From contig NZ_AULA01000009.1 in NCBI RefSeq assembly GCF_000425045.1, positions 1 through 64,000 of the forward strand: a stretch of 64,000 bases of DNA. Reading direction: 5' to 3'. Shown in pieces: positions 52,236-57,225 of this stretch. The position numbers and the translations under genes are program-made. Under the pieces are notes generated by a model. The model saw nothing but the letters and a program-made list of their open reading frames with translations. It searched no databases and was not told the origin of the DNA. Source of the stretch: Acidaminococcus intestini DSM 21505. Lineage in GTDB: Bacteria; Bacillota; Negativicutes; Acidaminococcales; Acidaminococcaceae. How positions within the stretch are numbered: position 1 is the stretch's first letter; the number at the start of each line of letters is the position of its first letter.

Positions 52236-52931
52236 AATAAATAGATTTCCAGTAAAATAATGATTACAGCAAACTCGGTGATATCACATGAGAACGAGTA
52301 AGGCACCAGATCTGCAAAACCAAATAAAGATGGTAACCCTTCGCAGCATCTGCCCCTCTAACAGAAAATCCTGAATCGGCAGATGACAGAAAAATCCCGT
52401 CAAGGCTGTAAATTTGTTCCTCCATATGTTCTTGACCATTGGTCTTGGGACGTGCTCCTGCCCTTCCATAAAGAGCGGCGAAAGCCAGCAGTGAACCAAT
52501 CGGAGCTCTTTTAAGGATGAGAAACAGTCTTATTATATCATAAGTAGGTCTTTTATGACCGATTTGGGAAAAGGACAATAATGGCAATCATGGTGTTTAG
52601 AAGGAAGGCCCAAAGGACCTTCCTTCATCCCAATTTTGTTCTTACCCTCCTTTTTTATTATTTTGATGACATCTGATATAATCCATTCTATGGGAGATCT
52701 TCCCTTGTCCTGATATTCGTGCCGTCAACACTATCTTAACAATAGGGGGCTCTCCTTTATTTTGCAAGTATTATGTATACCCTATCAAGAAACATTTTAC
52801 GCTTAGGGAAAGGCCCCTTTCCTCCGCTCCGTTCTTTTGATAAAATATAACTCATAGGGGAACTCTGGGGAATCAGGGTTCCTTCTTTCTTTTTTTGGGG
52901 AATGGCCCCAACAGAAAATGAGGTGAGAAAC
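52236..52931. other. Spacer between ansA and the proline-rich protein gene
   Basis: No supported gene. A 9-bp inverted repeat GAAGGAAGG/CCTTCCTTC lies near 52601-52627. An extended -10 TGATATAAT lies at 52674-52682, about 250 bp before the next start, and a further AT-rich promoter-like stretch is near 52835-52855. A minus-strand frame (52264-52587) lacks a ribosome site and family signature. Confidence 0.5.
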
Positions 52932-53402
52932 ATGGAAAAACAAAGACTGTGGATCAGGTGGCTTGGAGGGAGCCTTTTGACGATTTCCCTGCTTTTTTTC
53001 AGCAACGGGAACGTAAGTGCGGCGAAAATTCTTACAAAATACGGATCCCTGCCGCTTTACAGGGAAGATCTCATGCCCCTTACGGTAGAGCGTCCTTCTT
53101 TTTATGATGACCCGCCCCTTTGGACCATCCGGCTGCGCAATCAGCCGCAGGGACTGTTGGCGCCTGAAACTGGATTTTATCGTCCTATTTATGGCATCAT
53201 GCGCAGGAGGACCCCTGTCTTTCGCACGGTACGGCCCCTCCTCCCGCCCCAAAGCGCCCACCTTCCTACGGCTGTGGGGCCCGAGGAAAAGCAGCCATTT
53301 TTGGTGCGCCAGCCCCGTCCCTACAGCGGCACGCCCCAGCGTCAGGCTGCCTCTTTTCCTTCAAGACCGGGGGCTGTCCAAATTTTTGTCCCTAAACCTT
53401 GA
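52932..53402 (+). CDS. Exported proline-rich protein, unknown
   Basis: The 156-residue protein has a signal peptide (residues 1-30, WLGGSLLTISLLFFSNGNVS, cleaved near SAA). The mature part is basic and rich in Pro and Arg (RPLLPPQSAHLPTAVGPEEK, RQPRPYSGTPQRQAASFPSR), probably disordered. No enzyme motif is seen. GAGGTGAG precedes the ATG. It lies 136 bp upstream of the paired GTPases on the same strand, which have their own promoter. Confidence 0.65.
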   Translation: MEKQRLWIRWLGGSLLTISLLFFSNGNVSAAKILTKYGSLPLYREDLMPLTVERPSFYDDPPLWTIRLRNQPQGLLAPETGFYRPIYGIMRRRTPVFRTVRPLLPPQSAHLPTAVGPEEKQPFLVRQPRPYSGTPQRQAASFPSRPGAVQIFVPKP

Positions 53403-53538: not shown

Positions 53539-54744
53539 ATGAAGCTTTCCCAGCTTAGAAAAGCATATTTGATGGACCTTGCGAGCCGTTTTACAGGTCC
53601 GTTCCATAAGAAAAAGGCTGCCTCTTTTCGCACGGACGCGGTCAAACCAACTGCCCCTGCCTCCAAGATTCCCCATGATGTCTATGGTGAACTTGCTTTT
53701 CGTTTTTTGGAAGCCTGGCAGAAAGAAAAGGAACAAAAAGTTCGGATTTGCCTTTTTGGGCAGCCCGGTGCCGGCAAAAGTTCCCTTATCAATGAACTGA
53801 TAGGGGAGAAAAAAGCCAAGGTTGGAACCGGGACGGATACGACCAAGGAGGCCCAAGTCATCGAATCGGGAAGTGTTGTCTACGTGGACCTGCCTGGCTA
53901 TGATACGGCGCGTTTTCCCAAAAAAGGCTATTTCAGCCATTTTGATCCCCTCCAATACGACCTTTTTCTCTGCATTTTTTCGGGCAAGCTTACGGAGGCT
54001 GATACAGAATTTTTTTCCCGTCTCCAGCGGCTGGGCAGGGTCTGCCTTTTTGTGCGCAATAAGATCGATGGGCTTTATGCTCCTTTTCGGTCCTTAAAAA
54101 GTCTTGAAGAGGAAATCCAAAAAGATGTCCGTCATCAGGTAGGACCTTGTGCTCCGCTTTATTTTACGAGCTGCCGAAAGGATTGGGGCAATGCCCAAAA
54201 ACGAGGCATCCCGAATCTTCAGGAAGCCATCATGGATCATTTGGAGCCGGCTTTGAAAGACCGGTATGCCCGTCATGCAAAAGCGTATACGGAGCATACC
54301 CTTCTTTTGAAGCGTCGGGCGGCAGACCGTCGGGTGCGTAAGTATACAGCCATGGCGGCCGCCAACGGCCTTAATCCTGTTGTCGGTATGGATGCTGTTA
54401 TTGACGCGCGTATCCTCAAGGAAATGTATCAGGGAATCCGGACGGATTTTGGCTTAGGGAAATGGGATCTTCCTATCGAAGGAAACCGAGTAAATCTTGT
54501 AAAAAAAGTGGCCGGTGGGGTTACAGGCGAGCGCGTGACCAAGGGCCTGAGCCTCCTCTTACGCAAACGGGCCGGAGAGAAGGCAGCCAAATTTATTCCC
54601 CTTGCCGGGGCCGCTGCCGCTTCATTGATGAATGCGGGCAGTATGTATTATGTTGGAAAAGAATATGTCAGGATCTGTTACGAGTATGCCCGCAGACGGC
54701 TCCAGACAGAAATCGAGTGGGGGACCCATGAGCACAGAACGTGA
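53539..54744 (+). CDS. IRG/dynamin-like GTPase, first of a tandem pair
   Basis: The 401-residue protein has a basic N-terminal extension (1-66) and a G domain: G1 FGQPGAGKSS (74-81), G2 threonines near 101-102, G3 VDLPGYDT (117-123), G4 RNKID (173-177). The block FDPLQYDLFLCIFSGKLTEA followed by RVCLFVRNKID resembles vertebrate immunity-related GTPases. The C-terminal part has NGLNPVVGMDAVIDARILKE and a hydrophobic FIPLAGAAAASLMNAGSMYY, as in DUF697/IRG helical domains that contact membranes. GTP hydrolysis is likely and the role unknown. It overlaps its paralogue by 17 bp. Confidence 0.8.
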   Translation: MKLSQLRKAYLMDLASRFTGPFHKKKAASFRTDAVKPTAPASKIPHDVYGELAFRFLEAWQKEKEQKVRICLFGQPGAGKSSLINELIGEKKAKVGTGTDTTKEAQVIESGSVVYVDLPGYDTARFPKKGYFSHFDPLQYDLFLCIFSGKLTEADTEFFSRLQRLGRVCLFVRNKIDGLYAPFRSLKSLEEEIQKDVRHQVGPCAPLYFTSCRKDWGNAQKRGIPNLQEAIMDHLEPALKDRYARHAKAYTEHTLLLKRRAADRRVRKYTAMAAANGLNPVVGMDAVIDARILKEMYQGIRTDFGLGKWDLPIEGNRVNLVKKVAGGVTGERVTKGLSLLLRKRAGEKAAKFIPLAGAAAASLMNAGSMYYVGKEYVRICYEYARRRLQTEIEWGTHEHRT

Positions 54745-55771
54745 AGATATCAAGAAAATTGAAAAAGAAATTGATGAGGAGAATGTGCGCATTGTCCTTT
54801 TTGGCCAACCTGGAAGCGGGAAATCAAGCCTGATCAATGCCGTCTGCGGACGGGAGGCTGTAAAGACGGGTGAACTGATGGAACCGACGACCGACGCTGT
54901 GGTTGTGGAAAATGGGGATGTGACGTTTATCGATCTTCCTGGCTATGGAACGGATGGATTCCCGGAAGAAGCTTTTCTCGAACGGTTCCGGCCTTTTCAA
55001 TACGACCTTTTTCTCTGCGTCTTTTCTGATAAGCTGCGGGCTGCTGACACACGGCTATTCTGCATGTTGGAAGCCCTGAAAAAGCCCTGCATCTTTGTTC
55101 GCAGCAAAATTGACTTGATCTATGAGGAAGGCCGGACCTTGGAAGAGTGTGAGGCCGTTATCCGCCGTGATGTGGAAACGCAGCTGGGTACGCGGGATAT
55201 CGATCTGGTTTTTGTGTCGGCCCGTAGGGATCGGCCGGTGGGCATCGATGTCCTGAATGATGTCATCATGAGCAAGATGAATGAAGCTCGGAGAGAAAAA
55301 TATATCCTGACAGCTGAAGCGCGGACAAAGGAACAGCTTGAGGCCAAAAAGGCGGCGGCCATGACTTTTGTCAAGCGCAGTGCTACTTATTCTGCGTATA
55401 ATGGACTCAATCCTATCATCGCTGTTGATGCGGCTGTGGATTTTATGATCTTGTATCAGCTTTATAACAACATTCGGGAGACCTTTGGCATTACGGAAGA
55501 AATCATTGCGTCAAGCAAAAAAGTGTCTGATAAGGATAAACGCCTTGTCCTAGGCGGCATGAGCAGGGAAGGCATCAATCTTATCCTAAAGAATGCAGGT
55601 CGGCAGCTCGTGGCCCGGACCTTTCTCAAAGTCGTTCCCGTTGTGGGGCAGGCGACGGCGGCCCTTATTGGCTACAAACTTGTGAACAAGACGGGCCGTG
55701 ATTATGTCAATGCCTGTTATGAACTTGCCCGGGAGCGGCTGCTGTCGGCCCTTGATGCCCGGAGATCATAA
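54728..55771 (+). CDS. IRG/dynamin-like GTPase, second of a tandem pair
   Basis: The 347-residue paralogue has G1 FGQPGSGKSS (26-33), G2 EPTTD, G3 IDLPGYGT (68-75), G4 VRSKID (124-129) and G5-like VSARRD. RFRPFQYDLFLCVFSDKLRA is shared with the first gene. The C-terminal NGLNPIIAVDAAVDFMILYQ and VVPVVGQATAALIGYKL match too. It lacks the N-terminal extension. GTGGGGGA precedes the ATG at 54728, and the 17-bp overlap means coupled synthesis, as for heterotypic dynamin-like partners. The downstream amidohydrolase follows after 20 bp. Confidence 0.8.
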   Translation: MSTEREDIKKIEKEIDEENVRIVLFGQPGSGKSSLINAVCGREAVKTGELMEPTTDAVVVENGDVTFIDLPGYGTDGFPEEAFLERFRPFQYDLFLCVFSDKLRAADTRLFCMLEALKKPCIFVRSKIDLIYEEGRTLEECEAVIRRDVETQLGTRDIDLVFVSARRDRPVGIDVLNDVIMSKMNEARREKYILTAEARTKEQLEAKKAAAMTFVKRSATYSAYNGLNPIIAVDAAVDFMILYQLYNNIRETFGITEEIIASSKKVSDKDKRLVLGGMSREGINLILKNAGRQLVARTFLKVVPVVGQATAALIGYKLVNKTGRDYVNACYELARERLLSALDARRS

Positions 55772-55791: not shown

Positions 55792-57225
55792 ATGGAACAG
55801 ACAGCATATCTTCCCCATAACTACGAGGAAAAACTAAAGGCCCTCAATGCCGTGATCTGGGACGCGGCTGAACTGAAATTTGCCGAGACAAAATCGGCTA
55901 AGGCCATGACGGATTTTCTGCGTCAGGAAGGCTTTACCGTAAAAGAAGGTCTTGCTGGCATGAAAACCTCCTATGTAGCGGAATTTGGGTCTGGGCATCC
56001 CATTATCGGCATCCTCGCCGAATATGACGCCCTGTCCGGTCTTAGCCAAGAACTTGACGTGGCAGAAAAAAAGCCACGGTCTGGGACCTCGTGCGGACAC
56101 GGCTGCGGCCACTGTCTTTTGGGAACGGCCGCCATTGGAGCTGGTCTTTTGCTCCGGGATTATTTAAAAGCCCATCCTGACAAGGGGACGGTGCGGGTCT
56201 ATGGCTGTCCTGCCGAAGAAGGCGGAAGCGGGAAGGCCTATATGGCGAGGGAAGGCCTTTTTGACGATGTGGATGCTGCCTTTACGTGGCATCCGGCAAC
56301 GATGAATGCTGTTGCAACAGGCAGTAACCAAGCCAATATCCAGGCGGCCTTTACCTTTACCGGTCAGGCTTCCCACGCGGCAGCCTCTCCAGAAAAGGGC
56401 CGCAGTGCCCTTGACGCGGTGGAACTGATGAATGTGGGCGTGAACTATCTTCGGGAACATATGGCAGATTATGAACGCGTCCATTATGCAGTCCTTGATA
56501 CGGGCGGGGTTTCCCCGAATGTCGTTCAGGAGCATGCCGAGGTTCTCTATCTTATCCGCAGCAAGAGCAACGCCGAAGCGAAACGGCTTTATAAAAGGGT
56601 ACAGAAGATTGCCCAAGGGGCGGCTCTTATGACGGAAACATCCGTTTCCCTCCGTTTTGACAAGGCCGTATCAAATTTGGTGCGGAACGATACGCTTGCA
56701 GCGGTTATGCATGAAGCCATGGTGGAAGTGGGCGCACCGAAACGCACGGCGGAAGAAAAAGCGTATTTGGAAAAATTCCAAAAGACCGTGCCAGAAGAAA
56801 ATATCCTTCATGATCCGGGTATGACGCCCCTTCTTGATCGGGAGTTTTTGGAAAATCTTATCAAGAAGGATCGTTTTGGAGAATTCATTGTTCCCTTCCA
56901 GCCCAATTCCATTACTCAAATGGGATCGTCTGATACAGGGGACGTAAGTTATGTGACTCCTCTTGCCCAGTGCTACACGGCAACCTTCCCTATTGGTACA
57001 ACCGCTCATTCCTGGCAGTGGGTGGCTATGGGTCAGAGTCCAGTAGCTCTTTCGGGGATGTACTACGCGGCTCGCGTCATGGCGGAAAGCACGAAGAAAG
57101 TCATGGAAGAGCCTGCACTTCTTGACCGGGCCAAACAGGAACTGTCCGGCCGGCTGGGTGGAACATCCTATGAATGCCCCATCCCCAAGGATGTGTGGCC
57201 AACCAAATACGCAAAAATAAAATAA
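55792..57225 (+). CDS. M20 amidohydrolase, AbgB-like
   Basis: The 477-residue metallopeptidase has GHPIIGILAEYDALSGLSQE, SCGHGCGHCLLGTAAIGAGL, CPAEEGGSGKAYMAREGLF and HAAASPEKGRSALDAVELM, matching M20D aminobenzoyl-glutamate hydrolase subunit B. It probably cleaves aminoacyl amides such as p-aminobenzoyl-glutamate. GAGG precedes the ATG. It lies 20 bp after the GTPase pair and may share its transcript. It has no AbgA or AbgT neighbour. Confidence 0.9.
   Translation: MEQTAYLPHNYEEKLKALNAVIWDAAELKFAETKSAKAMTDFLRQEGFTVKEGLAGMKTSYVAEFGSGHPIIGILAEYDALSGLSQELDVAEKKPRSGTSCGHGCGHCLLGTAAIGAGLLLRDYLKAHPDKGTVRVYGCPAEEGGSGKAYMAREGLFDDVDAAFTWHPATMNAVATGSNQANIQAAFTFTGQASHAAASPEKGRSALDAVELMNVGVNYLREHMADYERVHYAVLDTGGVSPNVVQEHAEVLYLIRSKSNAEAKRLYKRVQKIAQGAALMTETSVSLRFDKAVSNLVRNDTLAAVMHEAMVEVGAPKRTAEEKAYLEKFQKTVPEENILHDPGMTPLLDREFLENLIKKDRFGEFIVPFQPNSITQMGSSDTGDVSYVTPLAQCYTATFPIGTTAHSWQWVAMGQSPVALSGMYYAARVMAESTKKVMEEPALLDRAKQELSGRLGGTSYECPIPKDVWPTKYAKIK

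Follow-up and report, generated by a model that had tools for sequence, protein, structure and literature searches.

A tandem pair of IRG-like GTPases in Acidaminococcus intestini that may act at the cell membrane

Two overlapping GTPase genes of Acidaminococcus intestini DSM 21505 raise the question of which family they belong to, whether they form a unit, and where in the cell their products might act. We analyzed them within the first 64,000 nucleotides of contig NZ_AULA01000009.1 (hereafter the window), which derives from a genome of 2.28 Mb. The original prediction had proposed an undescribed pair of bacterial GTPases resembling the vertebrate immunity-related GTPases (IRGs), with the two products forming a heteromer at the inner membrane, possibly in stress or phage response.

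The gene pair and its nearest relatives

The upstream gene (A) and the downstream gene (B) were confirmed as tandem, overlapping paralogs. Their products share 39% identity over 337 aa with an E value of 5e-77, and their paralogy is therefore beyond chance. The longest open reading frame for B begins at an ATG at 54632; the gene was called from an internal ATG (Table 1), which gives the 17 bp overlap with A, and the overlap is 4 bp in several relatives. The shared motifs were also confirmed, with G1, G3, G4, QYDLFLC, and NGLNP..DA present in both proteins. Both carry DLPGY in G3, that is, a hydrophobic residue at the position of Ras Gln61, a feature that Bekpen et al. 2005 (PMC1297648) give for IRGs as not diagnostic. 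The GYDT form of G3 is common to the aligned upstream copies of Acidaminococcaceae, and B of another Acidaminococcus (L068) has NKED at G4 rather than SKID. In A, a basic N-terminal extension precedes the G domain by about 60 aa. The hydrophobic C-terminal segment that had been noted is weak: the Kyte-Doolittle mean over 19 residues peaks at 1.09 in A and at 1.39 in B, lower than is usual for a helix that spans the membrane.

Table 1. Coordinates of the gene pair, its motifs and domains, and the downstream neighbor in the window
Feature	Position	Strand	Remarks
Gene A, upstream IRG-like GTPase	53539..54744	+	ATG start, 401 aa; PF05049 55.3 bits
Gene A, G1/P-loop GQPGAGKSS	53758..53784	+	
Gene A, G3 DLPGYDT	53887..53907	+	Y at the Ras Gln61 position
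Gene A, G4 NKID	54058..54069	+	
Gene A, C-terminal helical domain, IRG/DUF697-like	54256..54741	+	
A/B overlap	54728..54744	+	17 bp
Gene B, downstream IRG-like GTPase	54728..55771	+	start ATG 54728, 347 aa; PF05049 63.5 bits
Gene B, G1/P-loop GQPGSGKSS	54803..54829	+	
Gene B, G3 DLPGYGT	54932..54952	+	
Gene B, G4 SKID	55103..55114	+	
Gene B, C-terminal helical domain, NGLNPIIAVDAAVD ... IRETFGI ... KVVPVVGQ	55283..55768	+	profile-profile comparison shows homology to DUF697 and to the helical domain of vertebrate IRGs
M20 amidohydrolase	55792..57225	+	downstream neighbor, kept in 7 of 8 other Acidaminococcus genomes

The best Pfam match for both proteins was IIGP (PF05049), above its gathering cut-off of 24 bits (scores in Table 1). 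A sequence search of the PDB with B ranked mouse IRGs first, and a profile built from 24 bacterial relatives returned Irgb10 at the top (E 4e-32, 330 of 346 profile positions), followed by Irgb6 and Irga6 and then by Der, which matched over the G domain only. Judged by sequence, the closest relatives of A and B with known structure are mammalian immunity-related GTPases. In NCBIfam, Der and YsxC/EngB came nearest, but their scores of about 42-47 bits are far from the equivalog cut-offs of 306.7 and 124-164, respectively; placement in the Era/EngA clade was checked in this way and is not the case, Der itself scoring 44-47 bits (46.7 at best). The Pfam model Dynamin_N (cut-off 27) gave 28.7 for B, just above the threshold, and 21.3 for A, below it. 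Neither PHROGs nor PADLOC assigned A or B to a specific family or system, PADLOC giving only weak matches to LeoA, LeoBC, and mad8 over G-domain stretches, and Pfam detected no KH or other RNA-binding domain in either protein.

The AlphaFold2 models, built on a thin alignment, were of middling confidence (pLDDT 71.6 and pTM 0.59 for B; 69.3 and 0.54 for A). The first 36 Foldseek ranks for the B model were all IRG chains. With the Pfam and PDB results, this ranking bore out the predicted IRG-like assignment. Other fold matches included mitofusin and BDLP, and Der, YsxC, and Era were the next best for the G domain. VIA-align placed IRG chains on residues 18-344 of the middling-confidence B model with Z of 16-19 at an rmsd of 12-15 Å, so either the domain packing is unlike that of the IRG crystals or the model is off; over both models, whole-chain fits to IRGs gave 12-17 Å. 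The G domain of A fits Irga6 over 168 residues at 2.6-2.8 Å. The predicted likeness of the G domains to those of vertebrate IRGs held, but not their near-identity, as identity in the structural alignment is about 20%. Ahead of the G domain, B has fewer than 20 residues and A about 65, the alignment of A with Irga6 beginning at residue 44 (Irga6 47). The N-terminal helices that complete the IRG helical domain were not found; because B lacks these helices, we class it as IRG-like and not as an IRG proper.

The C-terminal helical domain and DUF697

The predicted IRG helical domain was supported when C-termini alone were compared as profiles, although the whole-chain models superpose poorly. With hhalign, the C-terminus of the family matched the C-termini of Irgb10, Irgb6, and Irga6 at 86.4% over 136 columns, compared with 1.0% for the best of 40 column shuffles and 0.3% for the reversed profile. 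The same region matched the C-termini of four G-domain/DUF697 proteins of relatives at 93.6% over 118 columns (best of 30 shuffles, 3.9%). A direct hhalign comparison of DUF697 with vertebrate IRGs found no link (0.5%), and no IRGs came up when the PDB was searched with HMMs of the C-terminal region by itself. The C-termini in the window gave no DUF697 (PF05128) match, and relatives scored 13.0-17.8 bits. One of five stand-alone relatives of the domain, taken from the genomes with stand-alone domains and from one Staphylococcus contig, passed the DUF697 cut-off (28.4 against 27.7). Since the C-terminus matches each side by profile and a stand-alone relative passes the DUF697 cut-off, we infer from these sequence comparisons that the helical domain of IRGs and DUF697 are connected through the bacterial family, the sole bridge that we found.

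Stand-alone proteins of this domain, mostly of about 160-180 aa, occurred in ten genomes of the class-wide census. Those at L113:5018-5503, L114:5008-5499, L115:4731-5213, L116:4773-5288, L118:4795-5274, L119:4733-5215, and, in Staphylococcus, L087:2902-3444 are 159-180 aa long, score 81-158 bits to the profile, and are borderline for DUF697. No partner GTPase was recognized next to the stand-alone genes. Beside the Staphylococcus gene lie genes for an 88-aa HPr-like protein and a 572-aa enzyme-I-like protein. As such neighbors are those of a bacterial chromosome, this contig (OR845008.1), named as a Staphylococcus phage, was set aside as a phage hit and seems to be chromosomal. A separate 468-aa protein of the source genome (G000:C4:105453-105647; L092:1261-2667) has a sub-threshold DUF697 match of 17.9 bits.

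Distribution, neighborhood, and duplication history

Among 380 Negativicutes genomes, 34 carried full-length members. Two copies were present in 23 genomes, always adjacent and co-directional, namely in all nine Acidaminococcus genomes and in 14 others. Ten genomes had a single full-length copy, and in one more (G233) the second copy was a fragment on a separate contig. These counts support the pair as a unit and show that homologs are not always single, although some are. A single gene was found in most genomes of genus g65, in G012, and in Azospirillum, and the pair is therefore not always required. Beyond Negativicutes the family is rare in the phylum: of 398 genomes sampled across it, 2 had full-length relatives, one being the source genome. 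A scan of genome contigs with one protein yielded two close Acidaminococcus records and, apart from these, no more than two G-domain fragments.

The pair occurs in several operon settings, including asparaginase-A-B-M20, panC-panD-A-B, and pyrF-pair-pyrD. Since these operons are unrelated, the two genes are the whole unit, and the cassette moves between housekeeping operons as a pair. At two loci (L079:7089-11444 and L080:8727-13304), the pair lies within a pyrimidine operon, pyrE-pyrF-[pair]-pyrD. An asparaginase gene lies directly upstream of the pair in most Acidaminococcus; in the window it is on the opposite strand. As for the two flanking genes that had been left open as possible components, the M20 amidohydrolase is a common neighbor in Acidaminococcus only, being absent beside the pair in other genera and also in G001, and we rejected it as an obligate partner; it is probably co-transcribed with the pair and probably has no functional tie to it. 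The exported Pro-rich protein upstream was rejected as a component, as tblastn found no match to it in 22 relative loci. Its reading frame (52902-53402 of the window, 166 aa) is an orphan and possibly lineage-specific. No defense genes flank the pair in the Acidaminococcus or other Negativicutes genomes examined, where the neighbors are housekeeping genes, and the neighborhood gives no support to the predicted phage response. No Rfam RNA elements were detected between 52000 and 58000, and a scan for promoters and terminators was at chance level.

The maximum-likelihood tree grouped upstream and downstream copies of Acidaminococcaceae together (support 100/99) and likewise those of a second clade (99/99), family f15, for which "Selenomonad-like" is our own reading. 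AU tests rejected a single clade of all upstream copies (p 0.0026) and of all downstream copies (p 0.0017), which counts against one old split. The simplest reading is that a tandem duplication took place once in Acidaminococcaceae and, separately, once in the Selenomonad-like clade; repeated gene conversion between neighbors could mimic this pattern. Each clade has its own asymmetry. The upstream copies of the Selenomonad-like clade have NHxx in place of NKxD and keep the P-loop, and the Acidaminococcaceae pair differs in G3 (GYDT upstream, GYGT downstream). Both genes are under purifying selection, with dN well under dS, and A evolves faster than B in the clade of the window (69% versus 84% identity to L031). 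A pair in a genome coded to the same family as the window (G065:C16:6770-8909; L047, L076) groups with the Selenomonad-like clade and reflects either horizontal transfer or a misbinned contig, the contamination estimate being 5%.

Relatives were also found outside Negativicutes and on mobile DNA. Azospirillum thermophilum has a single homolog, 39% identical, near divergent genes for phosphatidylserine synthase and decarboxylase. On plasmid NZ_CP097151.1 of Deinococcus sp. QL22 (L086:3955-16972), a full-length IRG-like GTPase gene lies within a BREX locus, between pglZ/brxL and a DarT-like gene, a methylase gene, and brxC, and a 234-aa G-domain-only protein begins 1 bp after it; the two are a candidate BREX accessory module. 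The locus also encodes a 515-aa unknown protein. Two phage contigs (L091:6617-7723 and L090:1263-2288) carry an IRG-like GTPase gene on the strand opposite the tail genes, beside the gene for a minor tail protein and close to that for the tape measure, and this GTPase gene is a candidate moron. The phage and BREX copies were not joined specifically to the Acidaminococcus pair in the tree.

Possible function and comparison with known systems

We consider the chances about even that A and B are subunits of one membrane-acting IRG-like GTPase device for envelope integrity; the two probably act together at the cell membrane. Each subunit would consist of a Ras-like G domain followed by the C-terminal helical domain. 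IRG and dynamin-like GTPases operate as G-domain dimers, and for this reason we propose that the GTP-loaded products of A and B would pair through their G domains. Their helical domains would contact the cytoplasmic membrane or enter it, and in the course of the GTP cycle an oligomer bound to the membrane would be built and released, keeping the envelope intact under stresses that include phage attack. One partner may now regulate the other; this is clearest in the Selenomonad-like clade, whose upstream copy no longer has NKxD, the motif for guanine specificity. The envelope role is proposed because the C-terminal domain is linked to DUF697. E. coli YcjF is a DUF697 protein. When phiX174 infects E. 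coli, expression of ycjX/ycjF goes up together with the PSP response (PMC8125068). The modest hydropathy peaks of A and B count against action at the membrane.

The main rival is a dedicated anti-phage system, in which IRG-like GTPases would detect infection and respond by attacking or sealing the membrane, with a block of entry or cell death as the outcome. Vertebrate IRGs attack the vacuole membrane, and a full-length relative with a G-domain protein inside a BREX locus, relatives by phage tail genes at a position typical of lysogeny-borne accessory genes, and the patchy distribution would all fit such a role. However, the pair is core in Acidaminococcus, with vertical inheritance and stable neighbors that, across Negativicutes, are housekeeping genes; PADLOC similarity is weak and confined to the G domain; and the tree does not tie the phage or BREX copies specifically to this pair. 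In the open-access literature we found no paper that describes defense against phages by IRG-like GTPases. We regard a dedicated system of this kind as possible but doubtful. A phage-defending two-subunit IRG system that is kin to the vertebrate cell-autonomous IRGs, arose repeatedly from ancestors with a single gene, each time as an effector/regulator pair, and has the phage and BREX relatives as its mobile forms is unlikely.

Comparable doubt attaches to a bacterial dynamin-like pair of the LeoBC, DynA, or Campylobacter DLP kind, with long stalks tethering membranes. Unlike GTPase partners adjoin here as they do there, B passes the Dynamin_N threshold, A matches LeoA over the G1 region (E 5e-11), and mitofusin and BDLP are among the fold matches. 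With 347-401 aa in all, of which helices make up about 160 aa behind the G domain, however, the proteins leave no room for a stalk and tip, and IRGs outrank dynamins in both sequence and fold, which makes this reading improbable. Still less probable is a GTPase of ribosome assembly or translation, of the Era/Der/YsxC kind, that gained a helical tail: although these proteins supply the next best G-domain matches in sequence and fold, the scores fall far below every equivalog cut-off, IRGs outscore them over a longer stretch, and an RNA-binding domain is absent. Plain redundancy, that is, a recent tandem duplication retained by chance and without heteromeric function, seems very unlikely too. 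Single-copy relatives with intact motifs and the faster change of A would suit it; against it, both copies are kept under purifying selection in every Acidaminococcus genome, and clade-specific signatures followed each duplication (DLPGYDT versus DLPGYGT; NHxx versus NKxD).

The origin of the vertebrate IRG proteins has been called obscure, and this family offers close bacterial candidates for a test of the IRG fold. Through its C-terminal region it also connects the helical domain of IRGs with DUF697, which is associated with the envelope's phage-shock response. It provides, moreover, a natural experiment in which two lineages independently made an unlike pair from one GTPase, one of them with a degenerate partner, and such unlike pairs echo the regulator/effector split of mouse IRGs. 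Should the phage-defense reading prove true, bacteria would have a membrane-defending IRG system related to the vertebrate one. Three features appear to be new, namely the tandem pairing, the link to DUF697, and the duplication in more than one lineage: we found no paper on them in the open-access literature, a search that covers few subscription journals and preprints and is weak evidence.

The pair can be compared with several known systems. Der, YsxC, and Era have the TRAFAC G-domain fold in common with it, but its C-terminal domain differs and its scores are far under their family cut-offs. LeoABC and bacterial dynamin-like pairs are likewise adjacent, unlike GTPases with similarity in the G1 region, whereas A and B lack space for the dynamin stalk and match IRGs best. 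DUF697 proteins such as YcjF, with its PSP-associated P-loop partner YcjX, have a homologous C-terminal domain (the 93.6% match above) and likewise bring together a P-loop protein and a DUF697-type domain; the pair, in contrast, stays under the DUF697 cut-off, and its G and helical domains are fused and duplicated. Bacterial GTPases reminiscent of IRGs were reported by Bekpen et al. 2005 (PMC1297648), and calling the pair undescribed was therefore partly wrong, although the pairing seems new. As far as the available part of that paper goes, its IRG-like GTPases are bacterial, chiefly cyanobacterial, and nematode, and structural proof of the IRG fold is needed to settle the bacterial look-alikes; the resemblance is of the same kind, likened by description only, and tandem pairs, a DUF697 link, and Negativicutes members are not mentioned in that part. 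Compared with the vertebrate IRGs themselves (Irga6, Irgb6, Irgb10, and GM4951; PF05049), the bacterial pair shows only about 20% identity in the structural alignment, B lacks the N-terminal helices ahead of the G domain, a C-terminal hydrophobic P.VGQ..AA segment is present, and interferon control is absent. The two groups nevertheless share the G-domain sequence and motif order, the hydrophobic residue at the Ras Gln61 position, a helical domain that follows the G domain and can be aligned from end to end when profiles are compared, and the occurrence of unlike family members within one genome.
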